Shown: positions 39,704 through 57,246 of the stretch, in pieces
Numbering within the stretch: position 1 is the stretch's first letter
How the letters are laid out: each line of letters starts with the position of its first letter
Source of the DNA: Pararhodobacter sp.
GTDB taxonomy: Bacteria; Pseudomonadota; Alphaproteobacteria; Rhodobacterales; Rhodobacteraceae
Direction of reading: 5' to 3'
DNA: 59,054 nucleotides
NCBI GenBank assembly: GCA_020832545.1
Contig: JAFIEK010000024.1
Location: 1-59,054 of the forward strand
The notes under the pieces: generated by a model
What the model was told of the DNA's origin: nothing
Databases searched by the model: none
What the model saw: the letters and a program-made list of their open reading frames with translations, nothing else
Program-made: the position numbers and the translations under genes

Positions 39704-39948
39704 GCCACCGCCTCCGCCGCGATCACCGCATGGGTCACCGTATCGCGCGTCACCGCCACCCAGGTGCCGCAGGGGTCATGATACCACAGATCGCGTGTTT
39801 CCCCGGCCGGGTTGTCGCGCAGATGCAGGTAGTCGTCCCAGGCGCTGGCATCTGCGTCGAGGGCAGGCCGGTTCAGGTAATCGGCGGCCCCGTAATAGGT
39901 AAACTCGCGCCGGTCGCGGGGGCCACAGCAGGGACAGGAAATGCGCAT
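39700..39948 (-). CDS. soxD: Sarcosine oxidase delta subunit
   Basis: An 82-residue zinc-binding subunit. The N-terminal MRISCPCCGPRDRREFTYYG contains the CxxC pair that ligates zinc in the complex, and the C-terminal LWYHDPCGTWVAVTRDTVTHAV is conserved in SoxD. The start at 39948 was chosen since upstream codons run into the soxB end. It sits between soxB (7 bp gap) and soxA (ATGA overlap). Confidence 0.93.
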   Translation of the reverse strand: MRISCPCCGPRDRREFTYYGAADYLNRPALDADASAWDDYLHLRDNPAGETRDLWYHDPCGTWVAVTRDTVTHAVIAAEAVA

Positions 39949-39955
39949 GCTTGCC

Positions 39956-41209
39956 TCAATGCAGGTTGTGCTGGCTGCCGGTGCCTTCTTCGTCCAGAAG
40001 ATGACCCGTGGCAAAACGATCCAGCCGGAAACGGGCGGCGGTCTCATGCGGCTGACCCGTCGCAATCAGATGCGCCAGCGCCCAACCCGAGGCAGGAACA
40101 GCCTTAAACCCCCCGTAATTCCAGCCACAATTCAGATAGAGCCCCTCAATACCGGTGCTGTCGATGATCGGCGAGCCATCGGGGGACATATCCATGATCC
40201 CACCCCAGGACCGCAAGACCTTCGCGCGCCCGATCATCGGCATCAGGGTCATTCCGGCTTCCATGACATGCTCGACCATCGGCAGATTGCCCCGTGCGGC
40301 ATAGGAGGCATAGAAATCCAGATCGCCGCCAAAGACCAGCCCGCCCTTGTCCGACTGGCTGATGTAAAAATGCCCCATGCCAAAGCTGATCACATGGTCG
40401 ATCACCGGCTTCAGCCCCTCGGTGACAAAGGCCTGCAAGACATGGCTTTCAATCGGCAATCTCATCCCGGCCAGTGCCGCCACCTGCCCGGACCTGCCCG
40501 CCGTAACCATCGCCACCTTCTTCGCACGGATCATGCCGCGTGTGGTCTGCACGCCCGTGACCCGGCCATTTTCAACATCAATGCCAGTCACTTCGCAGTT
40601 TTCGATCAGATCGACCCCGCGCTGATCGGCCGCGCGCGCATAGCCCCAGGCAACCGCATCGTGGCGGGCGGTGCCGCCACGCGGATGATAGAGGCCGCCA
40701 TAGATCGGAAAGCGCGCCTGCCCGAAATCGAGGTAAGGCAGCATCCGCCGCACGCCCTCGCGGTCCAGCAGCACCGCATCATCGCCCTGTGCGAGCATCG
40801 CATTGCCGCGCCGGACGAAAGCATCGCGCTGGCCGTCGGAATGAAAGAGGTTGATCAACCCGCGCTGGCTGTGCATCACGTTATAGTTCAGATCACGCTC
40901 CAGCCCCTCCCACAACTTCAGGGAATGGCTGTAAAATTCTGAATTCCCGGGCAAAAAGTAGTTCGCGCGCACAATCGTCGTGTTCCGCCCGATATTGCCG
41001 GACCCCAGATACCCCTTCTCCAGAACCGCGACATTGGTGATCCCGTGGTTCTTCGCCAGATACCAGGCCGTCGCCAGCCCGTGGCCACCGCCACCGATGA
41101 TCACCACATCGTACTCTGGCTTCGGCGCCGGCTTGCGCCATGCTGCGCGCCACCCCGTGTTGCCGGTAAGGCCCTGTGTGAAAACCCGAAACCCTGAATA
41201 CCGCATCAT
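39956..41209 (-). CDS. soxB: Sarcosine oxidase beta subunit
   Basis: The 417-residue catalytic flavoprotein subunit. The FAD-binding dinucleotide fold is VVIIGGGGHGLATAWYLAKNHG (residues 35-56). The SGNIGRNTTIVRANY segment is conserved, and H183 in GGTARHDAVAWGYA corresponds to the histidine that carries covalent FMN in SoxB. First gene of soxBDAG; its promoter region contains copy B of the dispersed element rather than a clear operator. Identification is firm. Confidence 0.95.
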   Translation of the reverse strand: MMRYSGFRVFTQGLTGNTGWRAAWRKPAPKPEYDVVIIGGGGHGLATAWYLAKNHGITNVAVLEKGYLGSGNIGRNTTIVRANYFLPGNSEFYSHSLKLWEGLERDLNYNVMHSQRGLINLFHSDGQRDAFVRRGNAMLAQGDDAVLLDREGVRRMLPYLDFGQARFPIYGGLYHPRGGTARHDAVAWGYARAADQRGVDLIENCEVTGIDVENGRVTGVQTTRGMIRAKKVAMVTAGRSGQVAALAGMRLPIESHVLQAFVTEGLKPVIDHVISFGMGHFYISQSDKGGLVFGGDLDFYASYAARGNLPMVEHVMEAGMTLMPMIGRAKVLRSWGGIMDMSPDGSPIIDSTGIEGLYLNCGWNYGGFKAVPASGWALAHLIATGQPHETAARFRLDRFATGHLLDEEGTGSQHNLH

Positions 41210-41338: not shown

Positions 41339-43423
41339 CTACTCTGCAGCCACCTTGAACACCGGCTCCATGCCCGCAAGTTCCGCATCACTGAGATGAC
41401 ATTTGATCTGATGCCCGCCTTCCAGCTTGCGCATCGGCGGCACTTCGCGATCGCACAGATCGCCGGGCACCTTTGATTTCCAGGGGCAGCGGGTCTGGAA
41501 CGGGCAGCCCGACGGCGGGTTCATCGCCGAGGGGATATCGCCCTCCAGCACGATCCGCTTCTTGACGATTTTCGTGTCGGCTATCGGTACCGCAGAGAGC
41601 AGCGCCTCGGTATAGGGGTGATAGGGCGGCGCGAAGACCTGATCGGTGGTGCCCAGTTCCACCACATGGCCCAGATACATCACCATCACCCGGTCGCTGA
41701 GGTAGCGCACGATCGACAGATCATGGCTGATGAACAAAAGGGTGGTGTGGTTCTTGCGCTGGATATCCATCAACAGCTCGGTCACCGCCGCCTGAACCGA
41801 CACATCCAGCGCCGAGATCGGTTCATCGGCCACCACCACCTTGGCATTGCCGGCAAAGGCCCGGGCGATCCCCACCCGCTGCTTCTGCCCGCCGGAAAGC
41901 TGGCGTGGCATACGCTCGGCAAATTCGCGCGGCAATTTCACCATATCGAGCAGTTCCAGCATCCGCTGGCGACGCTCACCATCGGATTTGCCCACACCAA
42001 AGATTTCAAGCGCGCGAATGATCTGCCGCCCAACCAGCATCGACGGGTTGAGTGTATCAAACGGGTTCTGAAACACCATCTGCAACGAAGACACGGTATC
42101 GGTGTTGCGTTGCTGGATCGGGGTGGATTGCACATTTTCATCGAACAGCATGACCTTGCCCGAGGTCGCGGTTTCCAGCCCCATCAGAACCTTGGCAAAG
42201 GTCGATTTTCCGCAACCGGATTCGCCCACAATCGCCAATGTCTCGCCCTCATGCGCGTCAAAGCTGAGCGTCTCGTTGGCCTTCACCACTTTGGTGTCGC
42301 CGCCTGAAAACAGTGACGAGGCCGCCACTTCGTAGTATTTGCGCACGTCTTCCATGCGCAACACGACCTCGCCGATCTTTGATTTCTCTTGCGTTTTGCT
42401 GGCCGCGACCGGTGCGTCCCAGTCGATCTCCGAGAACCGCAGGCAGCGTGAATCGTGGCGTTTGGCGTCATCGACCGGCAGCATTGCGATATCGGCCGCA
42501 TCGCAGCGCCCGCCCTCGAAATAGTCGCAGCGCGGGCCGAAATTGCAGCCCTTCGGGCGTTCGTGCGGTAGTGGGAAGTTACCGGGGATCGCGCGCAGCG
42601 GGCGCATGTTCTTGTTGGCACCGGGCAGCGGGATCGAACGAAACAGCGCCTGCGTGTAGGGGTGGCGCATCTTGTCGAACACATCCTTGATCTCGCCCGT
42701 CTCTACCGCCTCGCCGGAATACATCACCGTGATCCGGTTGCAGGTTTCCATGATCAGGCCCAGATTGTGGCTGATGAACAGCATCGATGTGCCGTATTTC
42801 TTGCCCAGATCCTTGACCAGATCGACGATCCCGGCCTCAACCGTCACATCCAGAGCGGTGGTGGGTTCATCAAGGATCAGAAGTGCGGGCTTTGCCATCA
42901 GCGCCATGGCGATCACAATGCGCTGCTGCTGCCCACCTGACAGCTGGTGTGGATAGGCATCCAGAATGCGGTCGGGGTCTGGCAGGCGCACGTCGGCCAC
43001 CAGTTGGCGGGCCAGCGCCCGGGCCTCGGTCTGGCCCATCTTCTGATGGATCATCGGCACTTCCATCAACTGCCGGCCGATCTTCATCGCCGGGTTCAGC
43101 GAGGCCATGGGCTCCTGATAGATCATGGCAATCTCTGATCCGCGCAGCTTGCGCAGCTCTTCCTGGCTCATGTTGGTCAGGTCGCGGCCCTTGAAGGTGA
43201 TCGACCCGCCGACGATCCGCCCGTTGACCCCCAGATCGCGCATCACCGCCAGCGCCACGGTGGATTTGCCGCAGCCGGATTCGCCCACCAGCCCCATCGC
43301 CTCGCCTTGCATGACGGTGCAGGAAAAATCCATCACCGCCGGAATTTCGCGCAGGCGCGTGAAGAACGAGATCGACAGGTTCTTGATCTCAAGGATCGGT
43401 TGTGACGGGTCCCAGGCAGTCAT
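41339..43423 (-). CDS. Dipeptide-type ABC transporter, fused double ATPase
   Basis: A 694-residue protein with two complete ABC ATPase modules, equivalent to DppD and DppF in one chain. Module 1: Walker A GLVGESGCGKST, signature LSGGQQQRIVIAMAL, Walker B LLILDEPTTALD. Module 2: Walker A AIVGESGCGKST, signature LSGGQKQRVGIARAF, Walker B VVVADEPISALD. Each ends with the oligopeptide-type C-terminal domain (CNFGPRCDYFEGGRCD and GCPFQTRCPWKSKVPGDLCD). The start MTAWDP has a GGAGG site. It powers the importer encoded by the next three minus-strand genes, but a 202-bp gap separates them. Confidence 0.93.
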   Translation of the reverse strand: MTAWDPSQPILEIKNLSISFFTRLREIPAVMDFSCTVMQGEAMGLVGESGCGKSTVALAVMRDLGVNGRIVGGSITFKGRDLTNMSQEELRKLRGSEIAMIYQEPMASLNPAMKIGRQLMEVPMIHQKMGQTEARALARQLVADVRLPDPDRILDAYPHQLSGGQQQRIVIAMALMAKPALLILDEPTTALDVTVEAGIVDLVKDLGKKYGTSMLFISHNLGLIMETCNRITVMYSGEAVETGEIKDVFDKMRHPYTQALFRSIPLPGANKNMRPLRAIPGNFPLPHERPKGCNFGPRCDYFEGGRCDAADIAMLPVDDAKRHDSRCLRFSEIDWDAPVAASKTQEKSKIGEVVLRMEDVRKYYEVAASSLFSGGDTKVVKANETLSFDAHEGETLAIVGESGCGKSTFAKVLMGLETATSGKVMLFDENVQSTPIQQRNTDTVSSLQMVFQNPFDTLNPSMLVGRQIIRALEIFGVGKSDGERRQRMLELLDMVKLPREFAERMPRQLSGGQKQRVGIARAFAGNAKVVVADEPISALDVSVQAAVTELLMDIQRKNHTTLLFISHDLSIVRYLSDRVMVMYLGHVVELGTTDQVFAPPYHPYTEALLSAVPIADTKIVKKRIVLEGDIPSAMNPPSGCPFQTRCPWKSKVPGDLCDREVPPMRKLEGGHQIKCHLSDAELAGMEPVFKVAAE

Positions 43424-43540
43424 GACGGCCTCCTTCAACGGGTGAACGGCGCGGCACCACATGATGCCCGGACGGAACCCAAGGCAGGGTTCGGTGTTAT
43501 GTAGACCAGTAGACAAACAGCTTCAGATGGAGATTTGAAC

Positions 43541-43615
43541 ATGCCGATTATTCTATGGATTCTTGGGGTACCGCTCAGCGTCATTGTGCTTTTGTTCCTG
43601 TTCGGCTTTTTCTGA
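43541..43615 (+). CDS. 24-residue membrane microprotein
   Basis: ATG at 43541 with GGAG nine bases upstream encodes MPIILWILGVPLSVIVLLFL followed by FGFF and a stop. It is a single hydrophobic helix. It lies antisense in the 202-bp gap between the second permease and the ATPase of the importer. Short proteins of the type MPxILWxLGVPLxxxxLLxLxG are, as I recall, recurrent in alphaproteobacteria. Function unknown; it might associate with the transporter or another membrane complex. Confidence 0.6.
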   Translation: MPIILWILGVPLSVIVLLFLFGFF

Positions 43616-43625
43616 TCTGGCAGCA

Positions 43626-44786
43626 TCAGTCCTTCAGACTTTCCTCGCGCAGGCCGTCGGCCAACAGGTTCAGACCAAGTACCAGTGACATGAGTGAAAG
43701 CGCGGGCACCAGCGCGGGGTGGGGATAGACAGTCAGCAGGCGGCGGCCTGCATTGATTGTTGAGCCCCAGTCCGGGCTTTCGGGTGCCACGCCAAGGCCG
43801 AAAAAGCCCAGCGTGCCCAGAAGGATGGTGGTATAGCCGATGCGCAGACAAAAATCGACGATCAGCGGCCCGCGCGCATTGGGCAGGATTTCCCACAACA
43901 TGATATACCACGGTCCCTCGCCGCGCGTCTGGGCGGCAGAGACATAGTCACGGGTCTTGATGTCCAGCGTGATGCCCCGCACGATGCGAAAGACGGTGGG
44001 CGCGTTGACAAAGACCACCGCCACAAACACGTTGAGCAGGTTGGGCGACATACCCCAGAAGCCCAGCGGATCGGCGTTGAACGCCAGCCCCGAATAAGCC
44101 CAGAGCCCGAATAACAGGACCAACCCCACATAGAGGTTGCGCTTGGCGGGCTGGGTGAAAAAGCGCGCGTTCAGAAGCACCATCACAAACAGCACCGGCA
44201 CCAGAAACAGCACGCCCGCCATCACGCGCGGAATAAGCGTGGCCTGAATTTCCGGCGCGACCAGCAGGAAGAACAGCAAGATCACCGGGAAGGCCAGCAC
44301 CAAGTTGGCCAGAAACGTCAGCGCCGTGTCCAGCCGTCCGGCGAAATAACCCGCCGGAAGCCCCAGCGTGATGCCGATCATGAACGAGATCATCGCCGCG
44401 AACGGCGCGATCCGCAGCACCTCGCGTGCGCCCATGACCGCGCGGGAAAATACATCCCGCGCCAGCGCATCGCCGCCCAGCAGAAAGTATTCATATCGCC
44501 CCGCCGCATCCGGCAGCGGGGTGCCCGGCACAACATTGCGCATCCGGCTGACCTGCCCCAGCGCGTCATGGGTGACTATCCAGTCAGCAAAGAGCGCGGT
44601 GAACACCCAGAACATGACAATGGCAAAGCCGATCATGCCAATGGTCGAGTCAAAGAGCTTGCCATAGAGCCCCAGCCGCCGTTTGAAGCGCAACGAAATG
44701 GCGAAGGTGAGCACCAGCGCGACCCAGACGGGCAGAAGCTGTTGCGCGATACGGGCGATGATTTCCAGCCAGCCGATCGGTTCCAT
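43626..44786 (-). CDS. Dipeptide-type ABC transporter permease (DppC-like)
   Basis: A 386-residue inner-membrane permease. The N-terminal OppC-type region (RRLGLYGKLFDSTIGMIGFAIVM) is followed by the DppC signature GGDALARDVFSRAVMGAREVLRIAP. The cytoplasmic EAA loop, which docks on the ATPase, is YVSAAQTRGEGPWYIMLWEILPNARGPLIV. It has about seven hydrophobic helices, longer than the usual 290 residues because of extra helices between about 190 and 250. The start MEPIGW at 44786 follows the upstream permease by 13 bp. Confidence 0.9.
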   Translation of the reverse strand: MEPIGWLEIIARIAQQLLPVWVALVLTFAISLRFKRRLGLYGKLFDSTIGMIGFAIVMFWVFTALFADWIVTHDALGQVSRMRNVVPGTPLPDAAGRYEYFLLGGDALARDVFSRAVMGAREVLRIAPFAAMISFMIGITLGLPAGYFAGRLDTALTFLANLVLAFPVILLFFLLVAPEIQATLIPRVMAGVLFLVPVLFVMVLLNARFFTQPAKRNLYVGLVLLFGLWAYSGLAFNADPLGFWGMSPNLLNVFVAVVFVNAPTVFRIVRGITLDIKTRDYVSAAQTRGEGPWYIMLWEILPNARGPLIVDFCLRIGYTTILLGTLGFFGLGVAPESPDWGSTINAGRRLLTVYPHPALVPALSLMSLVLGLNLLADGLREESLKD

Positions 44787-44799
44787 GCCGTGCTCCCCC

Positions 44800-45882
44800 T
44801 CAGGAAATGCGAATACGCGGGTTGAGCCAGACATAGCCGATATCGGATATCAGCTGTGTCACCAGAACCACCACCACCGCCACGACCGAAGCCGCCAGCA
44901 ACAGTTCAATGTCGTTGTTCACCGCCGCCTCATACAAGGTCCAGCCAAAGCCGGGGTAACTGAACAGCACCTCGACAATCACCACCCCGTTCAGAAGCCA
45001 CGGAATCTGCAGCATGATCACCGTGAAAGGCGCAATCAGCGCGTTTCTGAGCGCGTGTTTCAGCACGATGTTGGGAAAGCTGACACCCTTGAGGCGCGCG
45101 GTGCGGACATATTGCTGCGTCATCACCTCAGTCATCGAGGCGCGGGTGATACGCGCGACATAGCCCATACCGTAAAGCGCGATGGTCATCACCGGCAGGG
45201 TGAAGTTCCAGAAGGTGATCCGCTCCAGCGCCGAGCGCGCGTTGCCCTGAAACAGCACCGGCCCGTCGATCCAGCCCCAACTGACCAGAAGCGGCGACAG
45301 CCCAACCGTACTTGAAGCCAGAAGCGCGATGAACAACACGCCAGAGACATATTCCGGCGTCGCGGTCGAGGCGATGGCGAAGGTCGACAAAGATCGGTCT
45401 GTGCGAGAGCCTTCTCGCATCCCCGCCAGCACGCCGACCACCAGCGCCATCGGCACCATGATGATCAGCACCCAGAGCATCAGCCAGCCCGTGGCCCCCA
45501 GCCGGGCACTGATCACATCGGCGACGGGGGCGCGAAACCGGGTCGAGGTGCCCCAATAGCCTTGCGCGATGCCACAGCGTTCGCCTGCGGCGGTCTCGTC
45601 GATGCGATCCACACAGCGTCCGCGCAGCACGCCGGTCTGATCTTCGCGAACCCAGCCCGGCACCACCCCCAGCCATTCGCCGTAGCGCACGATCATGGGC
45701 GAGCCGTAGCCGTTGCGCTCCAGCCAACTGGCCACTTCGGCATCGCTCATGCGCGAGCCGGCCTGGGTCTTTGCCAGGGTCTCAAGCTTTGCGGGCAGGT
45801 TGGTGAGATAGAACACCACGAAGGTCAGACACAGCGCGGTGAGGATCATCACACCGAGGCGACGCAAGAGAAAGAGCAGCAT
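44800..45882 (-). CDS. Dipeptide-type ABC transporter permease (DppB-like)
   Basis: A 360-residue permease starting MLLFLLRRLGVMILTALCLTFVVFYL, the typical first helix of DppB/OppB. A periplasmic loop (about 30-125) contains GSRMSDAEVASWLERNGYG. The EAA loop reads YVRTARLKGVSFPNIVLKHALRNALIAP (about 265-292). Six main helices. It forms a heterodimer with the DppC-like protein. Confidence 0.92.
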   Translation of the reverse strand: MLLFLLRRLGVMILTALCLTFVVFYLTNLPAKLETLAKTQAGSRMSDAEVASWLERNGYGSPMIVRYGEWLGVVPGWVREDQTGVLRGRCVDRIDETAAGERCGIAQGYWGTSTRFRAPVADVISARLGATGWLMLWVLIIMVPMALVVGVLAGMREGSRTDRSLSTFAIASTATPEYVSGVLFIALLASSTVGLSPLLVSWGWIDGPVLFQGNARSALERITFWNFTLPVMTIALYGMGYVARITRASMTEVMTQQYVRTARLKGVSFPNIVLKHALRNALIAPFTVIMLQIPWLLNGVVIVEVLFSYPGFGWTLYEAAVNNDIELLLAASVVAVVVVLVTQLISDIGYVWLNPRIRIS

Positions 45883-45994
45883 GGCATGTCCTGTGGCTAG
45901 GCCGGACGGTCGACAAATCTGCGACCGCCACCGGGGCGAAGGATAGGATCAGCAAGAAAGGCGGCGGGTGATCCCCGCCGCCGCCATCTGGTCG

Positions 45995-47632
45995 TCAGCT
46001 CTTCCAGTACTGGTGGTAACGCACCTCGAATGTCGGATGCATCTCCGCGCCGTGGATATCCGGGCGGGCATGACGGAACAGCGAGCGCCAGTAGGGCTGA
46101 ATAAGCACGCCCTCTTCCTGCAGGATCTCCTGCAACCGGTGCATCACTTCGCGGCGCGCGTCAGCATCGGCGATGCCGTTGGCTTCATCCAGCAATGTGT
46201 CGAACTCAGAGTTGCCAAACGCCGTCTCGTTCCAGGCGCCGCCCGTGCGATAGGCCAGATTGAGAACCTGAACCCCCAGCGGGCGCATGTTCCACTCGGT
46301 CGCCGAGAACGGGTATTTCGTCCAGTCATTCCAGAAGGTTGCACCGGGCAGGATGGAGCGCTGGATATTGATCCCGGCATCGCGGATCTGGGCGGCGACG
46401 CTGTCGCAGGTCGCCGCTTGCCAGGCATCATCGATCGAGATCAGTTCGAACTCGTAATCGCCCAGCCCCTCGGCCTCGATCGCGGCACGCGCCCCGGCGG
46501 GATCGACAGAGAGCGGCGGCAATTCGGCATATTCGGGGTGGATCGGGCAGACATGGTGGTTCTCGGCAATTTCGCCCAGATCGTTGTAGCCCAGTTCCAG
46601 CACCACCGCGTTATCGACCGCCAGTTGCAGCGCCCGGCGCACATTGACGTTCTGATAAGGCTCCTGTTCCTGATTGAAGCGTACCGCGATTGTCGAGGCG
46701 GTCACCGCTTCAGTGCGCACCATGCCGATGGAATCGAAGATATCCACATAATCGCCGGTCGTCTGATAGACGATCTCGATCTCGCCACCTTCAGCCGCAG
46801 CCACCCAGGACGACGGATCGGTGCCCAGATCGACAAATTCGATCCGGTCCAGCCAGGCGCCGTTGCCCTCATTCCACCAAGTATGATCGGGGTTGCGCTC
46901 GATCACCACGCCGATGCCGGTGTCGTGGCTGACCGGGCGATACGGGCCGGTGCCGATCGGATTGGCGACCGGATCATCGCCGGTGAACGACGGATGCACC
47001 ACCGCCGCCGGGTAATCGGCCATACTGACGACGATGGCGATATCGGGGGCGGACAGATGCAGCTTCAGCGTGTGACTGTCGACAATCTCGATCGCACCGT
47101 CGCGCAATGCGTCGTTCTCGGAAATCGTGCCCATGCGGCTGGCCATCGAATTGCCCTCGACCGAGGCATCGCACCAGCGCTCGATGTTATGCGCGACATG
47201 TTCTGCGGTGAACTCATCGCCATTGTTCCAGGTCACACCCTGGCGAACATGCAGGGTGTATTCCGTGGCATCCTCATTGACCTCCCAGCTTTCCAGCAGC
47301 ACCGGGCTCAGCGAGCCGTCACGCTCATAATGGACAAGGTACTCCAGCCAGCCGCGGCAGACATTGGCCAGCTCTGACCAGTCCCAGGTGCGCGGATCAC
47401 GCTGGGCCTTGATATCCATCTGCATGCGCAGCGTGCCGCCCGCCTGCGGCGTGTCGGCGCGGGCCGCAGGCGCGGCGAGGCCCAGCAGGCCATAGGCTGC
47501 GGGCGCGGTCATGCCCAAAGCGGTGGCGCGGGTGATGAACTCGCGGCGGCTCAGTTTACCTGCGCTGCACTCGCGCGCATACATTTTTGCTGCGGGGTGA
47601 ATCGCGGTTTGATTCTGGATCGTATCTTTCAT
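45995..47632 (-). CDS. Tat-exported ABC substrate-binding protein (family 5)
   Basis: A 545-residue periplasmic binding protein of the dipeptide/oligopeptide (SBP_bac_5) family. The signal is a twin-arginine type: [20 protein letters not shown] followed by a hydrophobic run and ARAD cleavage near residue 50, so it should be exported folded. Family signatures are [36 protein letters not shown] and [17 protein letters not shown]. It is first in the importer operon, with a GGGAGA site. Ligands in this family range from peptides to opines, sugars and modified amino acids, so the substrate cannot be read. Confidence 0.92.
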
Positions 47633-47832
47633 CGTCCGTCTCCCTGACTGGCTTTGATTTTTTTTGGCAGCGGCCCGGCCAGCGGCCCCCTGCGCCTTCC
47701 CTTGCGTCATTGCGCCGCAGTTCGGCGCAAGATATGGTTCTGCAAGCGACATGTCCTTATCCAAACGCGACATCATCGAGAAAGCAACTCTTTTCTGTCG
47801 CAGCCTTTTTCGGCTCATGGCCTGCCTTGACG

Positions 47833-49065
47833 TCAATCGCGCGGCGCTCCTCCTTCAAATGCGTTCCCACTGACGTAATTGCACGGCGCTTCCTGCATCT
47901 GCAGGTGCAGGGCGTGGCCTTCGTAAGGATGCGCACGCGCCAGATCCTCATCGAAGGAGATTCCCAGCCCCGGCGCTTCAGGTGCGCGGATAAACCCGTC
48001 CTCCACCCTGATCGAATTGCGGATCAGCGGCAGATGAAACTCGCCCCCTGTCTGGATGCTTTCGACCATCAGCAGGTTGGGAATATTCGCCGCCAGCTGG
48101 ATATTCGCCGCCCATTCCACGGGCCCCGCGTAAAGATGCGGGGCGATCTGCGCGCCAAATGCCTCGGCGATGGCGGCGATTTTCTTGGTCTCCAGTATCC
48201 CGCCGGACCGGCCCAGCGCCGGTTGCAGGATCGCCGCGCCCCCGGTGCGCAGAAGGGTGGCGAACTCGGCCTTGGTGGTCAGCCGCTCGCCGGTGGCGAT
48301 GGGAATGCGCACGGCCTGTGCGACCTGAGCAAAATCCAACAGGTTGTCAGGCGGGATCGGCTCTTCGTACCAGAGCGGCAGATAGGGTTCGATCGCCTGC
48401 CCCAGCCGGATCGCGCCCGAAGGGGTGAACTGGCCATGCGTGCCAAACAGGATATCGGCGCGGTTGCCCACCGCCTCGCGGATCGCTTTCAGCATGCGCA
48501 CCGACAAATCGATGTCCCACATCGCAGGTTGATGGCCGCCGCGCATCGTATACGGGCCCGCGGGGTCCAGCTTGATGGCGGTGAACCCCTGCTCGACAGC
48601 GGCCAGTGCCGATTCCGCGTTCATTTCTGGCGAGGTCCAGTAATCGGCCTTCTTGTGATGCGGCAGCGGGTACAGGTAGGTATAGGCGCGGATCGCGTCA
48701 TTCATCCGGCCGCCAAGAAGCGCATAAACCGGCCGGTCCCGTGCCTTGCCAAGAATGTCCCAACAGGCAATTTCCAGACCTGAAAACGCGCCCATTACCG
48801 TCAGATCCGGGCGTTGCGTGAAGCCCGAAGAATAGGCGCGGCGGAACATCAGCTCAATGTTCTCCGGGTTCTCGCCCTGCATATGGCGCTCGAACACATC
48901 CTCGATCACCGCGCGCATCGCTTTGGGGCCGACCGAGGCGGCATAGACCTCGCCATACCCAGTGATGCCGTTGTCGGTGGTCAGCTTGACAAATATCCAG
49001 TAGTTGCCGCCCCAACCGGGGGGTGGCGTGCCGACCACGAAAATCTCAAGATCCAGAAGCTTCAT
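47833..49065 (-). CDS. Mandelate racemase/muconate lactonizing enzyme family protein
   Basis: A 410-residue enolase-superfamily enzyme. The N-terminal lid domain is about 1-125. The barrel shows a K-x-D motif (K165-L-D167, in [12 protein letters not shown]), GTHGQFT (about 208-214) at the first metal position, YEEP (E234/E235) and GERL (E260) as metal ligands, and a histidine in APHLYAGP. These suggest acid/base chemistry on a sugar acid or a related carboxylate. The exact reaction is not predictable. Its start overlaps the upstream zinc dehydrogenase stop (ATGA), and it precedes the ABC operon. Confidence 0.85.
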
Positions 49066-50150
49066 GGCCCCTCCCCCATCACGATCACATTGCGCCGTGC
49101 CTGCCCGGCCCTGGTGTCGGCGATGGCCGCGTTGATCTCGCCCAGCTTGTAGCGGCGGGTCACCAGTTCATCCAGCTTCAGCCGCCCCTGTCGGTACAGC
49201 TCAATGAGATAGGGGATATCACGCTTGAGCACCGTCGCCCCCATGTTCGACCCGGTCAGGGTCTGCGAGGCGGCGGCGACATTCGCAGGCTCGAAACTCA
49301 TCGCCTTGCCCGAGGCCGGCATGCCAACCATAACCAGCGTGCCCCCCTTTGCCAGCAACTCCGGCGCCCCCTGATAGGCCGAAATAACGCCGACGGTGAC
49401 ATACACATAATCCGCGCCGCGCCCGTCGGTCAGCGCAAGCACCGCGTCGCGCAAGCCCGGCGCGTCGGCGCGCAGCCCGTCCGTGGCCCCGAATTCGCGC
49501 GCCGCCGCCAGCTTGTCATCGGACAGGTCCACGGCGATGATCCGGCTTGCGCCCGCCAGCGCGCAGCCCTGAATGGTGTTCAGCCCCACCCCGCCCGCGC
49601 CGATCACCACCGCCGTCGCGCCAACCGGCATCTGCGCGGTGTTGATCACCGCACCGGTACCGGTGATCACGCCACAGGCCAGCAGACAGGCGGCATCCAT
49701 GGCAATATCCTCGGGCAAGGGCACGATCTGGCTGTGATGCACCACCACCGCCTCGGCGAACGCCCCGGTGTTGATGCCATGCTCAACCACTGTGCCATCA
49801 GGCAGGCTGAGCACGCCATTGGTGCGGTCATAGGCAGTTTCGCACATATAGGGGCGGCCCAGGGTGCAGTTGCGGCAATGGCCGCAGGCGCGCATGAGCG
49901 TCACCAGAACCGCATCCCCCATGGTCACACCGCGCACGCCCTCGCCCAGCGCCACCACCCGGCCTGCGGCCTCGTGGCCATAGACGGCAGGCAAATGCCC
50001 GCCCCAGCCGCCCTCGGCGTAAAGAATATCCGAATGGCAGATCGCGCAGGCCTCCACCTGCACCTGCACCTCGCCGGGTCCGGGCGGGCGCAACACCACC
50101 TCTTCAATCACCAGGGGCTCTCCAAACGCGTGGCAGACTGCCGCTTTCAT
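49062..50150 (-). CDS. Zinc-dependent alcohol dehydrogenase
   Basis: A 362-residue medium-chain dehydrogenase. Catalytic zinc ligands C38 (ACAICHSD) and H59 (YGHEAAG) and the structural zinc cysteines in RACGHCRNCTLGRPYMC are all present. The NAD-binding fold reads AVVIGAGGVGLNTIQGCALAGAS (about 180-205). It is related to the class III-like/aryl alcohol group. In this cluster it could oxidise formaldehyde adducts or an alcohol or aldehyde intermediate, which is inference. It overlaps the enolase-superfamily gene by ATGA. Confidence 0.88.
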   Translation of the reverse strand: MKAAVCHAFGEPLVIEEVVLRPPGPGEVQVQVEACAICHSDILYAEGGWGGHLPAVYGHEAAGRVVALGEGVRGVTMGDAVLVTLMRACGHCRNCTLGRPYMCETAYDRTNGVLSLPDGTVVEHGINTGAFAEAVVVHHSQIVPLPEDIAMDAACLLACGVITGTGAVINTAQMPVGATAVVIGAGGVGLNTIQGCALAGASRIIAVDLSDDKLAAAREFGATDGLRADAPGLRDAVLALTDGRGADYVYVTVGVISAYQGAPELLAKGGTLVMVGMPASGKAMSFEPANVAAASQTLTGSNMGATVLKRDIPYLIELYRQGRLKLDELVTRRYKLGEINAAIADTRAGQARRNVIVMGEGP

Positions 50151-50277: not shown

Positions 50278-52827
50278 TCATGACCGCATCTTTGCCCCCG
50301 TCGGATCAAAGGGCGGCTCCAACGCAAGGCGCGCCGGGCACCGGACGCCCATGATCTCCACCTCAAAGAGCCCGTCCCCGGCCTGCTCAGCCAGAGCTGC
50401 GGGCAGGTAGCCCTGCGCCATCGAGGCGCGCACCCAATGCGCATACCCGCCCGAGGTCACCCAGCCGACCACCCGCCAGTCGCCATCGCGCACTGGGTCC
50501 GGGCGCGGCATTGGCTGGCCCTGCGCATCAAAGCGCACCGCGCCATAGCCGTGCGAGGGCTCGATCGTGCCGAAATCCTGATCACCGACCTTCGCCCAGA
50601 TCGGCTCATCCCCCAGCACATCCGCCGTTGCCGCATTAATTATCAGCGAGACACGGCGCAGCCTCGGTCCGGCATCGCGCTCGGCCAGTGCGGCGGCGCG
50701 GCCAATGAAATCGGGCTTCTGGAACTTGATGAACCGCTCCATCGCGCCCTCGATTGGCCCGTAGATGGGCCGCAATTCGGCGAACCAAGTGGGAAAGTTC
50801 TTCTCCAGCCGCATCGACAAAAGCGCGCGCATACCGAAATCGACAATGCCATGCTCTGCCCCTGCCGCCTTGATCGCCAGATACACCCGCCGCTGGACGC
50901 TGGGTTTCATCCAGATCTCATAGCCCAGATCGCCGGTATAGGTGATGCGGTTGATCATGCAGGGCGCACCCGCCACATCCATTTCGCGGTAGTCCATGAA
51001 GCGGAACGCGGCGTTCGACACGTCTTCATCCACCAGCCCGGCCAGCACATCGCGCGCCCTCGGCCCGGCGATCGACAGCCCCACCAGATCGGTATGGAAC
51101 CGGTGCACCGCGACCGAGCCATCGCCGGGCAACTGGCGTTCAAACCAGCGCATGTGGTATTTCGAGGCCCCCAGCGAGCCCCAGATCACAAACCGCCCTT
51201 CGCCTGCTTTTGCGATGGTGAAATCACCGATCAACTTGCCGCGCTCATTCAGCATCGGTGTCAGCACCAGACGGCCCGTTTTCGGCATCGTGTTGGTCAT
51301 CAGCCGGTCCAACCAGTCTTCGGCCCCCGGCCCGCTGACCTGATACTTGGCAAAGTTTGCGATCTCGGTCACGCCCACCCGTTCGCGCACGCCGCGCACC
51401 TCGGCACCCACATGCTCAAAATCGTTGGAACGATGGAAACTGAGCTTGTCATAGGCCTCCTCCGCCGAGGGGGCGAACCACAAGGGCGTCTCCAGCCCCC
51501 AGCTGTCGCCCATCACCGCATGGTTGTCGCGGACCATCAGGTCATAAAGCGGCGTGGTTTCCGCCGGGCGGGCGGCGGGCAGTTCCTCGTTCGGAAAGCG
51601 GATCGAAAAGCGGCGCGAGTAATTTTCGCGCACCTTGGCATTGGTGTAGCGCAGGGTTGCCCATTCGCCGTAGCGCGCCACATCCATGGCGAAAATGTCG
51701 TGCCCCGGGTCGCCGTCGACCATCCAGTTGGCCAGCGCCAGCCCGACGCCCCCGCCCTGGCTGAAGCCCGCCATCACCGCGCAGGCGCACCAGAAGTTTG
51801 TCAGCCCCTGCACCGGCCCCACCAGCGGGTTGCCATCGGGGGCAAAGGTAAAGGGGCCGTTGATCACCCGTTTGATGCCCGCGTGTTCATAAGGCGGGAA
51901 ATGGCGAAAACCTATTTCCAGCGACGGCGCAATGCGGTCCAGATCAGGGGCCAGCAACTCATGGCCGAAATCCCAAGGCGTGGTGAGGGGCGACCAGGGC
52001 TTGGCGGCCTTCTCATAGGTGCCCAAGAGGATGCCCTTGCCCTCCTGGCGTGTGTAGATCTCACCCTTGAAGTCGATCACATGGATCAGTTCACGCCCCG
52101 TCGCTTCATTGAATTCGATAACCTCGGGCATGTCCTCGGTCAGCAGATACATGTGTTCCATCGCCAGAACCGGCAGTTCCAGCCCCACCATCCGACCCAC
52201 TTCGCGCGCCCAGAGGCCACCGGCATTGACCACGTGCTCACACTGGATTGGCCCGTTCGCGGTGTGCAGGGTCCACATGCCGTCCGGGGCCTGCGTGATG
52301 TCCTGCACCGGGTTGCGCAATTCGATCCCGGCGCCCAGCATCCGCGCGGCTTTGGCATAGGCATGCGTGGTGCCCGACGGGTCCAGATGCCCTTCCACCG
52401 GGTCCCAGAGCGCGCCGACGAAATGGCGCTCATCCATCAGCGGGAACATGGCCTTGGCCTCAAGAGGGGTGATCAGTTCGGTCTCCATCCCCAGCGCGCG
52501 GCCACGGGCATGCGACAGGCGCAGGAAATCCATCCGCTCGGGGCTGTCGGCCATCATCACGCCGCCCACCAGATGCAACCCGCAGGACATGCCCGTCAGC
52601 TCTTCCAGTTCTTTGTAAAGCGAGATCGTATAGGCCTGCAACTTGGCCACATTGGGGTCACCGTTAAGCGTGTGAAAACCCCCGGCGGCGTGCCAGGTTG
52701 ACCCCGAGGTCAGTTCGGAACGCTCGATCAGCAGCACATCCGTCCAGCCCGCGCGCGCCAGATGGTAAAGGACCGAGCAGCCCACCACACCCCCGCCGAT
52801 CACCACGGCCCTGTAGCTTCTGGTCAT
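50278..52827 (-). CDS. Dimethylglycine/sarcosine dehydrogenase-like FAD-GcvT protein
   Basis: An 849-residue two-domain demethylase. Residues 1-400 are a DAO-type FAD domain (VVIGGGVVGCSVLYHLA; SGSTWHAAGGF, where H46 is at the position of the histidine bound covalently to FAD in dimethylglycine dehydrogenase). Residues about 430-840 are GcvT-like with a C-terminal barrel and should take methylene groups onto tetrahydrofolate. The family oxidatively removes N-methyl groups from dimethylglycine, sarcosine or related N-methyl amino acids. Start and upstream stop overlap by ATGA. Substrate unproven. Confidence 0.9.
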   Translation of the reverse strand: MTRSYRAVVIGGGVVGCSVLYHLARAGWTDVLLIERSELTSGSTWHAAGGFHTLNGDPNVAKLQAYTISLYKELEELTGMSCGLHLVGGVMMADSPERMDFLRLSHARGRALGMETELITPLEAKAMFPLMDERHFVGALWDPVEGHLDPSGTTHAYAKAARMLGAGIELRNPVQDITQAPDGMWTLHTANGPIQCEHVVNAGGLWAREVGRMVGLELPVLAMEHMYLLTEDMPEVIEFNEATGRELIHVIDFKGEIYTRQEGKGILLGTYEKAAKPWSPLTTPWDFGHELLAPDLDRIAPSLEIGFRHFPPYEHAGIKRVINGPFTFAPDGNPLVGPVQGLTNFWCACAVMAGFSQGGGVGLALANWMVDGDPGHDIFAMDVARYGEWATLRYTNAKVRENYSRRFSIRFPNEELPAARPAETTPLYDLMVRDNHAVMGDSWGLETPLWFAPSAEEAYDKLSFHRSNDFEHVGAEVRGVRERVGVTEIANFAKYQVSGPGAEDWLDRLMTNTMPKTGRLVLTPMLNERGKLIGDFTIAKAGEGRFVIWGSLGASKYHMRWFERQLPGDGSVAVHRFHTDLVGLSIAGPRARDVLAGLVDEDVSNAAFRFMDYREMDVAGAPCMINRITYTGDLGYEIWMKPSVQRRVYLAIKAAGAEHGIVDFGMRALLSMRLEKNFPTWFAELRPIYGPIEGAMERFIKFQKPDFIGRAAALAERDAGPRLRRVSLIINAATADVLGDEPIWAKVGDQDFGTIEPSHGYGAVRFDAQGQPMPRPDPVRDGDWRVVGWVTSGGYAHWVRASMAQGYLPAALAEQAGDGLFEVEIMGVRCPARLALEPPFDPTGAKMRS

Positions 52828-53564
52828 GCAAGTTCCTCCTGCGGTGGGTGACACCCCATCCCGATCAGTGTTTCCCTCAGCCCGGCTGCGAGCGCCGGTT
52901 CGGTTCTTGGCCCGGTGACATAGGGCAGGCCCGGCCGCGCGGCGGTCCAGCCCAGCACGACAAGCCCCTTGGCGCAAGGCTCATACCGACCTGCCAGCGC
53001 CCAGCTGCGGCAATCAACCGCGGCCAGATCGGCGTGCCCTGCGGCCACAGCAGTGATCGAGGCGCGATGCCCGCCGGTTTCCACCACACCCGCCGCCAGT
53101 TGGCCGGGATCGCCGCCCAGATCCGCCGCCAGCGCCAACCAGCCTGACAGCGAATGGCGCGCATTGGCGGCCAGAACACGCCCGGCCAACAGCCCCTCAG
53201 GCAGATCGGCACCCTTGCTTGTCGGCGCGGCCTTGCTTGTCAGAGCGGCCCGCGAGGTGCCTTGGCGCGCAATCACCACAGACCGGTAGTGCGCGCCCTG
53301 CCCGCCCGGCACGTCCGAATAATCAGGCTGCGCCAGCACCCGCAGCCCCGGCAACATGCCCAGCGACAGCGGCCCCCAGCAGGTTTGCGAGAATACCAGC
53401 GCCGGGTCGCGCCAAAAGGCAAGAAGCGCGGGTTCATCGACCGGGCGGGTCAACGTGGCGGGCAAGTCGCCGCCGGTGCGGGCGCGGATACCGGCCCACA
53501 GCGCATCGACTGTCGCGCGCTCTTCGGGCCAGTCATACATGGGCAGGCAGGCGCGCCCCATCAC
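52824..53564 (-). CDS. PhnD-like substrate-binding-fold protein without signal peptide
   Basis: A 246-residue protein of the PhnD/periplasmic phosphonate-binding superfamily: RACLPMYDWPEERATVDALWAGIR, the FSQTCWGPLSLGMLPGLRVLAQPDYSD segment and AAVAAGHADLAAVDCRSWALA are typical. It has no signal sequence and no transporter genes beside it, so it probably binds a ligand in the cytoplasm. It is coupled by ATGA overlaps both to the desaturase upstream and the dimethylglycine-dehydrogenase-like gene downstream. A ligand-sensing or substrate-channelling role is inference. Confidence 0.8.
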   Translation of the reverse strand: MMGRACLPMYDWPEERATVDALWAGIRARTGGDLPATLTRPVDEPALLAFWRDPALVFSQTCWGPLSLGMLPGLRVLAQPDYSDVPGGQGAHYRSVVIARQGTSRAALTSKAAPTSKGADLPEGLLAGRVLAANARHSLSGWLALAADLGGDPGQLAAGVVETGGHRASITAVAAGHADLAAVDCRSWALAGRYEPCAKGLVVLGWTAARPGLPYVTGPRTEPALAAGLRETLIGMGCHPPQEELA

Positions 53565-54529
53565 GCCACGCGCCTAGCGTGCTGGCGCGGTACGGTGGGC
53601 GGCGGCACGGGTGGGACAGCGGGGGGATGTGGCACCTCGGGGAAGACCTTGAGCGCGGGATGGGCGACCGGCTCTTTGGCGCGCAGGGCATGGGCCAGAA
53701 AAAGCTGCCAGTAATTTCGATAGACATATCCACCGTTAAGCGCCTGCCAGTGTTCACGCCGTTCACGATAAAGGCGCGGCAAGGCATACCACGGCGCGCC
53801 CGGGAGCTCATGATGCACGATATGCAGGTTGTTGTGCAAAAACAGCCAGGCCAGCGGCGAGCGTTCCACAATGATCGTGCGCCCCTGCGGTGTTTCGTGC
53901 CAGCGGTGCTCGGCATAGGTGCGAATGGAGATCAGCGACAGCGCGGGCCATGCGACCGCCAGCACATAGAGCCAAAGCGGGATGCCAAACGCCAAGAGCG
54001 CGGCCAGCACCGGCAGCGCGCCCGCCAAATGCAGCGCCCAGGCCAGCCGCACACCGCGCACGCCACGCCCACCCTTGCGCAGCAACCGCAGTTCCGAAGT
54101 CAGAAAACCGACCGCGCCCAGCAGCGGGCCCAGCACGATCCGGCCCAGCATGGTGTTGTTGACACGCAAGAGCGCGCGCAGCCAGCCCGGCATGGCCGCA
54201 AACTTCCAGCGCGCCTTGTAATAGCTCTCCGGGTCTTCGAACGGATCGGTCAGGCGGGCGTCATGATGATGGATCAGATGGGTCGCCCGGTAACGCCTGT
54301 AGGGGTGAACCAGCGACAGGGGCAGCGCCACCAGCGCCTCGTTAAGCAGCCGGTTGCGCGTGGGATGGCCGTGCAGGCATTCATGCACCAGCGAGGAATG
54401 CAGAGCCGCCATGACGGCCATCACAGCCAGCGCAACTGCGGGGGCAACCGGCCAAAGCCACAATCCCGCCATCACCCATATACCGTAACAGCCCCCGATC
54501 AGCGCCAGGGTCGGCCACTCAATACGCAT
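53561..54529 (-). CDS. Fatty-acid-desaturase-type membrane di-iron enzyme
   Basis: A 322-residue integral membrane protein with the histidine boxes of the desaturase/hydroxylase superfamily: HECLHGH (about 50-56), HLIHHHD (about 82-88) and HNNLHIVHH (about 232-240). The N-terminus has two hydrophobic helices and a second pair lies near 165-195. The last 25 residues are proline-rich. A start at MRIEWP has AGGAGG; a longer frame to 54643 is unlikely. It heads the operon with the PhnD-like and demethylase genes, so its substrate may be an N-methyl compound or a membrane lipid; this is undecided. Confidence 0.85.
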   Translation of the reverse strand: MRIEWPTLALIGGCYGIWVMAGLWLWPVAPAVALAVMAVMAALHSSLVHECLHGHPTRNRLLNEALVALPLSLVHPYRRYRATHLIHHHDARLTDPFEDPESYYKARWKFAAMPGWLRALLRVNNTMLGRIVLGPLLGAVGFLTSELRLLRKGGRGVRGVRLAWALHLAGALPVLAALLAFGIPLWLYVLAVAWPALSLISIRTYAEHRWHETPQGRTIIVERSPLAWLFLHNNLHIVHHELPGAPWYALPRLYRERREHWQALNGGYVYRNYWQLFLAHALRAKEPVAHPALKVFPEVPHPPAVPPVPPPTVPRQHARRVA

Positions 54530-54624
54530 CAATCCTCCTGATTTGTGCCATGCAGTCTGGCGCGTTCCGGCCATCGCGGGCAAGGCGCGTGTGATCGTCA
54601 TTCCGGTTATGGATTGACGACTTC

Positions 54625-54641
54625 GGTAAAATATCGTTACC
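54625..54641. promoter_or_regulatory. Inverted repeat, candidate operator of the XRE regulator
   Basis: GGTAA-AATATCG-TTACC in the divergent gap between the desaturase operon and the XRE-type regulator gene, next to the AT-rich presumed promoters. Confidence 0.55.
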
Positions 54642-54670
54642 AAAGTCTACATTTATCATGGATGGCATCG

Positions 54671-55513
54671 ATGAACAAACGCCACGCCGCCGCACAGTTC
54701 CGCGACCGCCTTGCCCAGTTGCAGCGCCAGTCCGGATTGACGCAATCGGCCTTTGCGCAAGCCATCGGCATCGACCGCTCGGCGCTGTCGCAACTGATGA
54801 GCGGCGCCAACCCCCGCTTGCCGCGGGCCGAGACGCTGCTGGCACTGGCCGGGCGGTTTCAGGTCTCGACCGATTGGCTGCTGGCGCTGACCGAAGATCG
54901 CGGCATCATCACCCAGACGCTGAATGCCGTGGAGACCGAGCAGGCGCTGGATGACGAGAGCCGCACCGCGATGGAGCGCTGGCACCACGAGGCGGCAGGG
55001 CAGAAGGTCCGCTATGTCCCGGCCCAGCTGCCTGACCTGATGCGCACCGAGGCGGTGATCGCGTTTCAGGCGGCATCCAGCGAACAGGAACGCCGCCGCC
55101 TGCAGGCACAGACCGAGCGGCGGCTGCATTTTTCGCGCATGCCGGAATCCGACATTGAAATGTGCATGCCATTCCAGACACTTGAAGTCTTTGCTAAGGG
55201 CAATGGCGTCTGGATGGGCCTGCCCGCCGCTGAGCGGCAGGCCCAGCTTGATCATATCGCCGTGACGGTGGAAGAGCTGTATCCGGCGTTTCGGATGTAT
55301 CTGTTCGATGGCCGCAAGCGCTTTGCGCCTCCGATGACGATGTTCGGCTATGCCCGCGCGGCGGTCTATGCGGGCGAGGTGTATCTGCTGATCCGCTCAA
55401 AGCAACTGATCCGCGATCTGGCGCAGGGCTTTGACGGCCATATCCGTCATGCCGAGGTCCATGCCCATGAGGCGGCCGGTTTTGTGCGCGGGCTGGTTGT
55501 TTCGCCCGATTGA
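54671..55513 (+). CDS. XRE-family regulator of the demethylation cluster
   Basis: A 280-residue regulator. The helix-turn-helix spans about 8-65: FRDRLAQLQRQSGLTQSAFAQAIGIDRSALSQLMSG. The C-terminal 150 residues are an unrecognised ligand-binding-like domain with MPFQTLEVFAKGNGVWMG, FRMYLFDGRKRFAPPMTMFGYARAAVYAGEVYLLI. An in-frame ATG three codons upstream (54662) is an alternative start. It is divergent from the desaturase-PhnD-demethylase operon and precedes the methyltransferase gene, so it is the likely pathway regulator. Confidence 0.85.
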   Translation: MNKRHAAAQFRDRLAQLQRQSGLTQSAFAQAIGIDRSALSQLMSGANPRLPRAETLLALAGRFQVSTDWLLALTEDRGIITQTLNAVETEQALDDESRTAMERWHHEAAGQKVRYVPAQLPDLMRTEAVIAFQAASSEQERRRLQAQTERRLHFSRMPESDIEMCMPFQTLEVFAKGNGVWMGLPAAERQAQLDHIAVTVEELYPAFRMYLFDGRKRFAPPMTMFGYARAAVYAGEVYLLIRSKQLIRDLAQGFDGHIRHAEVHAHEAAGFVRGLVVSPD

Positions 55514-55683: not shown

Positions 55684-57246
55684 ATGATGTCCGAGACCGA
55701 AGCCATACCCCGCCGCCGAGCCGGTGGCCGGGGCGGCAATGCGCGCCGCGTATCGGGGTTTCACCTTGATCAGATGCCCTGGCGCATCCCCAAGAACACC
55801 GATCGCCCGACCGAACCCATTGACGCCGAGGGGGTGCAAGCGATCCATAAGGGCGCGATGCGGATCCTGTCTGAGATCGGGATCGAGTTTCTCAATGACG
55901 AGGCGTTGGCGCTGTTTCGCCAAGCCGGGTGTCAGGTTGACGGCAACCGAGTGCGCATGGACGAGGATTTCGTCATGGAGATGGTGCGTCGCGCGCCCGC
56001 CGCCTTCACCATTACCCCGCGCAACCCGGAGCGGCAGGTGACCATCGGCGACGGGCATATGGTGTTTGTCAATGTGTCCAGCCCGCCGAACTCCTGGGAT
56101 CTGGCGCGCGGCAAGCGGCCCGGTGATTTTGCAACCTTCCGCGAATTCCTGATGCTGACGCAGGCCTTCAACTGCATTCATGTTGCGGGCGGCTATCCGG
56201 TGGAGCCGGTAGATGTTCACCCCGGCGTGCGCCATCTGGCGTGTCTGCAGGAAAAACTGGTGCTGACGGACAAGGTTTGCCACGCCTACAGCCTGGGCCG
56301 CGAGCGGGTCGAGGATGTGATGGAGATGGTGCGCATCGCAGGCGGCCTCAGCCATGAAGAGTTCGACGCAACGCCGCGGATGTACACCAACATCAACTCG
56401 GTCAGCCCGCTCAGGCATGATTTTCCCATGATCGACGGCGCGCTGCGCATGGCGCGGCGCGGCCAGCCGGTGGTGGTGACCCCCTTCACGCTGGCCGGTG
56501 CCATGGCCCCGGTCACCATGGCCGGTGCCGTGACGCTGTCGATCGCCGAGGCTTTGGCGGCCATCGCGCTGTTGCAGTATGTGGCACCCGGCTGCCCGGT
56601 CGCGATTGGTACCTTCACCTCGAATGTGGACATGCGCACCGGCGCGCCTGCCTTTGGCACGCCCGAATACATGCGTGCCACGCAGATGACCGGGCAGCTG
56701 GCGCGGCTCTATGGCCTGCCCTTGCGCTCATCGGGTGTCTGCACCGCCAATGCCCCCGATGCACAGGCGATGTGGGAAACCACCAACAGCCTGTGGGCTG
56801 CCGTGCAATCGGGCTCGAACATGGTCTATCACGCGGCAGGCTGGCTGGAGGGCGGACTGATCGCCAGCCCCGAGAAATTCGTGATGGATTGCGAAGTCTT
56901 GCAGATGATCCAGCGGTATTTCGAACCCGCGACCTTTGGCACCACGCCCGAGGATATCGCATTCGAGGCCGTGGCCGAGGTGGGGCCGGGCGGGCACTAC
57001 TTTGGCTGCGCCCATACCGAGGCGCGCTATGCCACAGCGTTTTATGCGCCCATGGTCTCGGACTGGCGCAACTATGAGGCCTGGGAGGCCGATGGGTCGG
57101 AGCAAACGCCTGCGCGCGCACATCGGATGTATCGCCAGATCGTGGACGGGTTTGAGCCGCCGGCGATGGAGGACGCAATCCGCGAGGAACTGACGGCCTT
57201 TGTCGACAAGCGCACGCGCGAGGGCGGCGCACCCACCGATTTCTGA
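55684..57246 (+). CDS. Trimethylamine methyltransferase (MttB) family protein, non-pyrrolysine
   Basis: A 520-residue TIM-barrel protein of the MttB superfamily: AIHKGAMRILSEIGIEFLNDEAL near the N-terminus, RMYTNINSVSPLRHDFPMIDGAL and AALAAIALLQYVAPGCPVAIGTF in the barrel, GSNMVYHAAGWLEGGLIASPEKF and GGHYFGCAHTEARY later. There is no in-frame amber codon, so pyrrolysine is absent and it resembles the MtgB-type group active on glycine betaine or other quaternary amines. The corrinoid protein usually needed as methyl acceptor is not encoded in the window. Starts at 55684, a second ATG follows directly. Confidence 0.88.
   Translation: MMSETEAIPRRRAGGRGGNARRVSGFHLDQMPWRIPKNTDRPTEPIDAEGVQAIHKGAMRILSEIGIEFLNDEALALFRQAGCQVDGNRVRMDEDFVMEMVRRAPAAFTITPRNPERQVTIGDGHMVFVNVSSPPNSWDLARGKRPGDFATFREFLMLTQAFNCIHVAGGYPVEPVDVHPGVRHLACLQEKLVLTDKVCHAYSLGRERVEDVMEMVRIAGGLSHEEFDATPRMYTNINSVSPLRHDFPMIDGALRMARRGQPVVVTPFTLAGAMAPVTMAGAVTLSIAEALAAIALLQYVAPGCPVAIGTFTSNVDMRTGAPAFGTPEYMRATQMTGQLARLYGLPLRSSGVCTANAPDAQAMWETTNSLWAAVQSGSNMVYHAAGWLEGGLIASPEKFVMDCEVLQMIQRYFEPATFGTTPEDIAFEAVAEVGPGGHYFGCAHTEARYATAFYAPMVSDWRNYEAWEADGSEQTPARAHRMYRQIVDGFEPPAMEDAIREELTAFVDKRTREGGAPTDF

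Follow-up and report, generated by a model that had tools for sequence, protein, structure and literature searches.

The DNA analysed here, contig JAFIEK010000024.1 of Pararhodobacter sp. (assembly GCA_020832545.1; 59,054 nucleotides (nt), called the window below), encodes an XRE-type regulator divergent from a membrane di-iron enzyme of the fatty-acid-desaturase superfamily (DES), which is followed by a cytosolic protein with a periplasmic-binding-protein fold (PhnD-like). We find that these three genes make up the lasting unit of the locus, very likely a functional module, and that this module is probably linked to betaine metabolism. The interpretation that we favour, tentatively, is an oxygen-dependent DES step on a small N-methylated zwitterion, with the PhnD-like protein as a putative ligand handler. 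An earlier note on this DNA had instead grouped DES and the PhnD-like protein with a dimethylglycine-dehydrogenase-like (DMGDH) enzyme encoded after them; all three of its genes are present, with the domains given here.

54662..55513, plus strand: XRE-type helix-turn-helix regulator, divergent from DES, start inferred from the sequence (HTH_3, E 7.4e-11)
53561..54529, minus strand: DES, membrane di-iron enzyme of the fatty-acid-desaturase superfamily, 322 amino acids (FA_desaturase PF00487, E 1.7e-33)
52824..53564, minus strand: PhnD-like cytosolic protein of periplasmic-binding-protein fold, 246 amino acids, with a GTG start at 53564 or an ATG start at 53561 (Phosphonate-bd PF12974, E 8.9e-15)
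50278..52827, minus strand: DMGDH-like enzyme of the flavin adenine dinucleotide (FAD)/folate type, 849 amino acids (DAO, FAO_M, GCV_T and GCV_T_C)

Linkage and co-occurrence of DES and the PhnD-like gene

A search of named genomes yielded at least 555 confirmed DES relatives, and we analysed the best 80 loci, a sample that leans to near kin and whose query alignment (A1) consisted mostly of PhnD-linked DES. The main counts come from tblastn; our open-reading-frame caller was a rough tool that overlooked genes at L206 and some other loci. A PhnD-like gene lay downstream of DES on the same strand in 78 of the 80 loci (all but L128 and L192), at a distance of 2.25 kb in one of the named loci (L146), and 78 had an XRE gene divergent from DES at a distance of no more than 600 nt (all but L128 and L125, the latter on a contig that starts 563 nt upstream of DES). 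At the level of the class, DES was present in 38 of 385 genomes at E ≤ 1e-50, 33 of them outside the window's family, and the 20 best-scoring of those 33 were examined as loci of about 10 kb each. Sixteen of these contained an XRE regulator, and 15 contained a PhnD-like gene near DES, placed after DES in eight, with the XRE gene in six and divergently in one.

The nearest named loci of the window belong to Rhodobacteraceae, and its order was accordingly taken as Rhodobacterales. Across one fixed set of 390 genomes of the window's order (thresholds E ≤ 1e-30 for DES and E ≤ 1e-9 for PhnD-like), we detected DES in 245 and the PhnD-like gene in 263. Both genes occurred in 241 genomes, DES only in 4, PhnD-like only in 22 and neither in 123 (Fisher p = 3e-72, a value that ignores descent). 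That the two proteins go together, as the earlier note proposed, is supported by linkage and co-occurrence alike. Among the matches listed, 86 DES/PhnD-like pairs were compared: 10 lay within 5 kb, 30 shared a contig with a spacing of 51 kb or more, and in the other 46 each gene was on a contig of its own.

Relatedness among genomes was addressed within seven genera that have at least one species with both genes and at least one labelled as having neither, and in which the gene places seen were unlinked. Their species fell into 40 with both, 11 with neither, 7 with PhnD-like only and none with DES only (p = 1.4e-7); five of the seven genera contained no mixed species (31 both, 9 neither). The test omits genus g121, in which DES and the PhnD-like gene are linked (4 species with both, 1 with neither), and the genus labels used cover a part of the 'neither' genomes. 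A DES tree of 91 proteins, rooted at the midpoint, required four changes of PhnD linkage; its first split leaves PhnD-linked forms on either side, and the roseobacter-type DES sampled were mostly unlinked. Its rows are a chosen subset, from which duplicates and two of every three rows of L143-L180 were dropped.

Gene neighbourhood of the module

The setting envisaged by the earlier note, catabolism of N-methylated amines, is borne out by the neighbouring genes, although that note omitted the divergent XRE regulator, the MttB gene, the downstream alcohol dehydrogenase (ADH) and MR/MLE genes, the ATP-binding cassette (ABC) transporter and soxBDAG. The remaining features of the row are as follows.

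57304-58890: gamma-glutamyltranspeptidase, adjoining MttB
55687..57246, plus strand: MttB-superfamily methyltransferase, possible MtgB-type betaine demethylase (PF06253, E 3e-216, 718.7 bits)
54622..54644, strand undefined: palindrome TTTGGTAA-N7-TTACCGAA, a weak candidate operator
49062..50150, minus strand: zinc ADH, class III/formaldehyde-dehydrogenase-like (ADH_N, ADH_zinc_N)
47833..49065, minus strand: enolase-superfamily (MR/MLE) dehydratase-like enzyme (MR_MLE_N and MR_MLE_C)
41339..47836, minus strand: ABC transporter with an SBP_bac_5 protein (start uncertain), two permeases and a double ATPase
36220..41209, minus strand: sarcosine oxidase genes soxB, soxD, soxA and soxG (NCBIfam scores)

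The XRE regulator, MttB and gamma-glutamyltranspeptidase thus occupy the divergent side of DES, and the DMGDH gene is followed on its own strand by ADH, MR/MLE, the SBP_bac_5 transporter and soxBDAG. Sox genes scored above cut-off with TIGR01373 (671 bits) and TIGR01372 (1252 bits), SoxD (84 bits) and SoxG (57 bits) under it. MttB did not reach the cut-off of TIGR02369, the Pyl-type trimethylamine methyltransferase model (265.9 vs 525 bits), and ADH stayed under cut-off for all 22 NCBIfam models listed. Together with MttB and DMGDH, soxBDAG (36220-41209) would take betaine through to glycine.

Genes of betaine demethylation recur around the module: MttB, DMGDH and sarcosine oxidase and, in rhizobia, also a betaine-homocysteine methyltransferase. 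Of the 80 named loci, 50 have a homocysteine S-methyltransferase-family gene, and 49 of these, all except L113, are from outside the window's family. In 45 of the 46 loci where both this gene and XRE were called, the two were no more than 800 nt apart; the one representative scanned passed the NCBIfam betaine-homocysteine methyltransferase cut-off (575 vs 338 bits). Other recurring neighbours in the 80 loci were a corrinoid protein (20), DUF1638 (11) and a DddP-like M24 protein (36). Window-type MttB (at least 65% identity) occurred in all 40 genomes sampled from the 241 with both genes, compared with 2 of 40 sampled from the 123 with neither. A DMGDH-family gene (E ≤ 1e-220) was present in 36 of the 38 DES genomes of the class vs 30 of 347 others; among the rows compared by eye, DES and DMGDH-family genes were mostly on different contigs.

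Parts of the window's wider row also recur. Close relatives carry the MR/MLE gene in the row (for example L093-L095, L113 and L119-L122), and substrate-binding-protein and permease genes are found also in L093, L113 and L122; among the 100 loci compared, gamma-glutamyltranspeptidase occurred in L113 alone. In L206, from another family, SBP_bac_5 and permease genes with 50-60% identity to those of the window adjoin XRE, DES, PhnD-like, MttB and DMGDH. As separate observations, the DddP-like M24 gene (L171, 4323-5684, and 35 other named loci) lies near PhnD-like/DMGDH, with 456 bits against a DddP cut-off of 600 for the one scanned, and at Leisingera L192 (6386-10879) the XRE-DES pair stands near a carnitine 3-dehydrogenase gene (817 bits, cut-off 592). 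The idea of a homarine or trigonelline operon was set aside; going by the search listings, none of the papers listed connects it with these genes.

The search for a shared operator gave no conserved regulator site. A strict search of 108 upstream regions matched the window palindrome only, and within its own genome the pattern at 54622-54644 had a single match, as did a reversed control pattern. When the top two palindromes per locus were compared, L116 and L032 showed similar ones and L157 had a partial likeness, whereas the top two of the 29 other loci listed included no similar palindrome. Searches with the regulator used 54656-55513 as query span; at L199 (5756-10388), in a genome with neither DES nor PhnD-like, an XRE homolog has an MR/MLE relative (55%) close by.

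Features of the DES and PhnD-like proteins

DES passes the PF00487 gathering cut-off (116.9 vs 29.7 bits), and its three His boxes (H49/H53/H55, H84/H87/H88 and H236/H239/H240) are invariant in 35 of 35 aligned sequences. Its predicted model is mostly helical, with a predicted local distance difference test (pLDDT) score of 82.6.

The PhnD-like protein has a type II binding-protein fold. Its model (pLDDT 94.6) matched AioX, ArrX, PhnD and PtxB best (Foldseek E about 1e-9 to 1e-13). The earlier note had called this protein signal-less, and we agree: the window frame offers no start before GTG 53564 and its first predicted strand begins at residue 4, which leaves no room for a signal peptide, and we found neither an export signal nor a mark of periplasmic location in it. 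This result holds for the window frame, starts in relatives being our choice. There is also no cognate permease beside the PhnD-like gene; the sole transporter found in the row has its own SBP_bac_5 protein.

Eight residues (Q60, C62, S95, S138, S140, G141, H166 and D184) are invariant in 76 of 76 PhnD-like sequences from four sets, and M9, Y10 and Y93 are kept in 75 of them. Since AioX has aligned counterparts of the S-x-S-G, H and D elements, the ligand likely bears an oxyanion, as judged from sequence. We rejected an aromatic cage for a quaternary ammonium group (W12, W63, W206) as a feature of the module: the three tryptophans are kept in 33 or 34 of 34 PhnD-like proteins of DES-linked named loci, and W63 is replaced by Gly in 15 of 15 class-level members. 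In several Rhodobacteraceae, unlinked PhnD-like genes keep other company at L048 (8901-19901) and similar loci among L038-L050, namely TerB-family genes, an amino-acid ABC transporter and glutamine-synthetase-like and amidotransferase-like genes (assigned partly by eye), an assemblage that resembles polyamine gamma-glutamylation.

A proposed role and its main alternatives

In the mechanism that we propose, DES would be a di-iron monooxygenase of the membrane and would oxidise, on the cytosolic side, a small N-methylated zwitterion or a compound from which such a zwitterion arises. In the cytosol, the PhnD-like protein would bind the substrate or product via its oxyanion loop (S138-x-S140-G, H166, D184) and then hand the ligand on or report it to the regulator, while MttB, the DMGDH-like enzyme and sarcosine oxidase would go on to strip methyl groups stepwise. 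XRE, DES and PhnD-like would constitute a small regulon alongside betaine-type demethylation. A broader claim, which we regard as doubtful, is that these genes represent a new two-component membrane oxygenase that serves the aerobic demethylation of betaines throughout Alphaproteobacteria. Its desaturase-family di-iron enzyme would be controlled by a dedicated regulator and would rely on an obligate cytosolic partner of periplasmic-binding-protein fold to handle the small zwitterion that it uses or produces. In sea and soil, much nitrogen and carbon passes through glycine betaine and similar osmolytes, and a gene pair present in 241 of 390 genomes of one order and tied to betaine metabolism suggests that an oxygen-dependent step or a sensor has so far been missed; if true, it would also be an unusual intracellular use of the substrate-binding-protein fold.

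Several observations weigh against an oxygen-dependent step on a zwitterion. A sequence search with DES, taken up to E 0.1, gave no relative of solved structure, and the best folds for its model were two chains of chloroplast FtsHi complexes, which we take to be fatty-acid desaturases, with AlkB matching weakly; a lipid substrate is therefore possible. The co-occurrence of DES and PhnD-like has been corrected for descent in part only, and the 22 genomes with PhnD-like alone lack its supposed partner. The regulator was present in 8 of 72 genomes lacking DES, namely 6 of 22 PhnD-only and 2 of 50 'neither' genomes; the 20-kb loci surrounding it in these eight genomes showed no DES, so the regulator is not strictly tied to DES. 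MttB could demethylate a quaternary amine alone, and genome G299 carries window-type MttB (75%) with neither DES nor PhnD-like. In roseobacters MttB and DES share one synteny block, often 7-9 kb apart, so part of their co-occurrence reflects shared synteny. Among the class-level loci (about 10 kb each), 16 of 20 contained no MttB relative, and the genes around the module in L207, L208 and L210 resemble housekeeping genes when judged by eye.

The strongest alternative, which we consider somewhat unlikely, is that DES desaturates or hydroxylates acyl lipids and thereby adjusts the membrane under osmotic stress, that PhnD-like and XRE sense an osmolyte, and that the betaine genes answer the same stress. 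Membership of the PF00487 superfamily, the fold matches above and the position of the module away from demethylase genes in most class-level loci would all fit this account. No lipid gene appeared, however, among the recurring neighbours annotated, a minority of the neighbour clusters, and the strong ties of DES to MttB and DMGDH genes speak against it.

It is improbable, although compatible with the invariance of C62, H166 and D184 in all 76 sequences, that the PhnD-like protein is instead a cytosolic enzyme of binding-protein fold that acts on the DES product through these residues. Thi5, labelled HMP synthase, is also among its fold matches; against this, AioX, a binder, has the S-x-S-G, H and D pattern at the aligned positions.

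Placement of the demethylase gene and remaining alternatives

The earlier note proposed four-base ATGA overlaps at every junction of the triad. The PhnD/DMGDH junction is indeed an ATGA overlap, but the DES/PhnD junction reads GTGATG, a GTGA overlap with the GTG start or a single base with the ATG start. Nor is the tight stoichiometry read from these overlaps a sound deduction: ATGA overlaps also join ADH to MR/MLE (49062-49065) and SoxD to SoxA (39700-39703), so such junctions carry little weight, and most rhizobial relatives have a gap between DES and PhnD-like, mostly of 7-144 nt (with starts chosen by us).

Extending the comparison to other genomes, as the earlier note had suggested, recovered the DES-PhnD-DMGDH order in close relatives and a loose DMGDH elsewhere. 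A close DMGDH homolog (>60% identity) was co-directional with DES in 11 of the 80 named loci (10 within 1 kb and one more than 5 kb off) and lay on the opposite strand in 52, where it is therefore not co-transcribed with DES; in 17 loci, some of them short contigs, none was seen. Further kin of the window also have the co-directional order, and its retention in close relatives places the row beyond chance. Of the 20 class-level loci, 2 contained a DMGDH relative (at least 40%) and 4 an MttB relative. Given the loose placement of DMGDH, an obligate triad is not supported, and we rejected it. Two short fragments like the C-terminal half of the DMGDH-like enzyme lie near DES-PhnD at L036 (12181-13157), perhaps a decayed gene.

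That DES, PhnD-like and DMGDH form one complex channelling a demethylation intermediate would agree with the small or absent gaps of this row in close relatives, but the named and class-level placements speak against it; we think it quite improbable, and no general rule beyond the window's clade. Very improbable, too, is that DES and PhnD-like open a phosphonate zwitterion (for example N-methylated 2-aminoethylphosphonate) to glycine betaine and phosphate as TmpA and TmpB do, these being, we presume, of protein families other than DES and PhnD-like. TmpA/TmpB of Leisingera do yield phosphate and glycine betaine, according to the excerpts of PMC10574752, and a PhnD-type fold with an oxyanion loop would suit such a substrate; yet carboxylates could occupy the same PhnD-like site, and no phosphonate gene appeared among the annotated neighbours, no search having been aimed at phosphonate genes. 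Shared descent without functional meaning is scarcely credible, for although the genomes are related and presence or absence partly follows lineages, the seven-genus counts and the different gene orders across families contradict it.

Comparison with known systems

The DMGDH-like enzyme combines the DAO, FAO_M and GCV_T domains with an FAD-linking His motif, whose His presumably carries FAD. Over residues 7-746 it matches two dimethylglycine dehydrogenases of known structure, 4p9s and 5l46 (E about 1e-166 to 1e-165), sharing their domain order and STWHAAG motif; residues about 747-784 fall outside the match, and the substrate is a prediction from sequence likeness. DES has three His boxes and membrane helices in common with CrtR (beta-carotene hydroxylase), GntB (arginine hydroxylase) and PF00487. 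Its NCBIfam matches to CrtR (32 bits, cut-off 475) and GntB (28.5 bits, cut-off 380) are weak, and unlike them it has a partner of binding-protein fold. That partner shares its fold with PhnD, PtxB, AioX and ArrX and differs from them in having no signal peptide.

Full-text literature searches, with most subscription journals outside their coverage, listed no paper that describes the DES/PhnD-like pair. The nearest pathway is betaine demethylation by MtgBCDE in Ruegeria, where, in the excerpts of PMC12478193, MtgE is homologous to a predicted rhizobial Bhmt. As far as those excerpts go, the window shares with it an MttB-superfamily protein, a DMGDH-like enzyme and sarcosine oxidase, and the rhizobial module loci share a BHMT/MtgE-like protein, the corrinoid protein and DUF1638; the pathway as described there proceeds without a DES/PhnD-like pair, the word 'desaturase' being absent from the main text. 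TmpA/TmpB, as presented in the excerpts of PMC10574752, offers a different parallel: a roseobacter two-gene oxidative route with glycine betaine as product.

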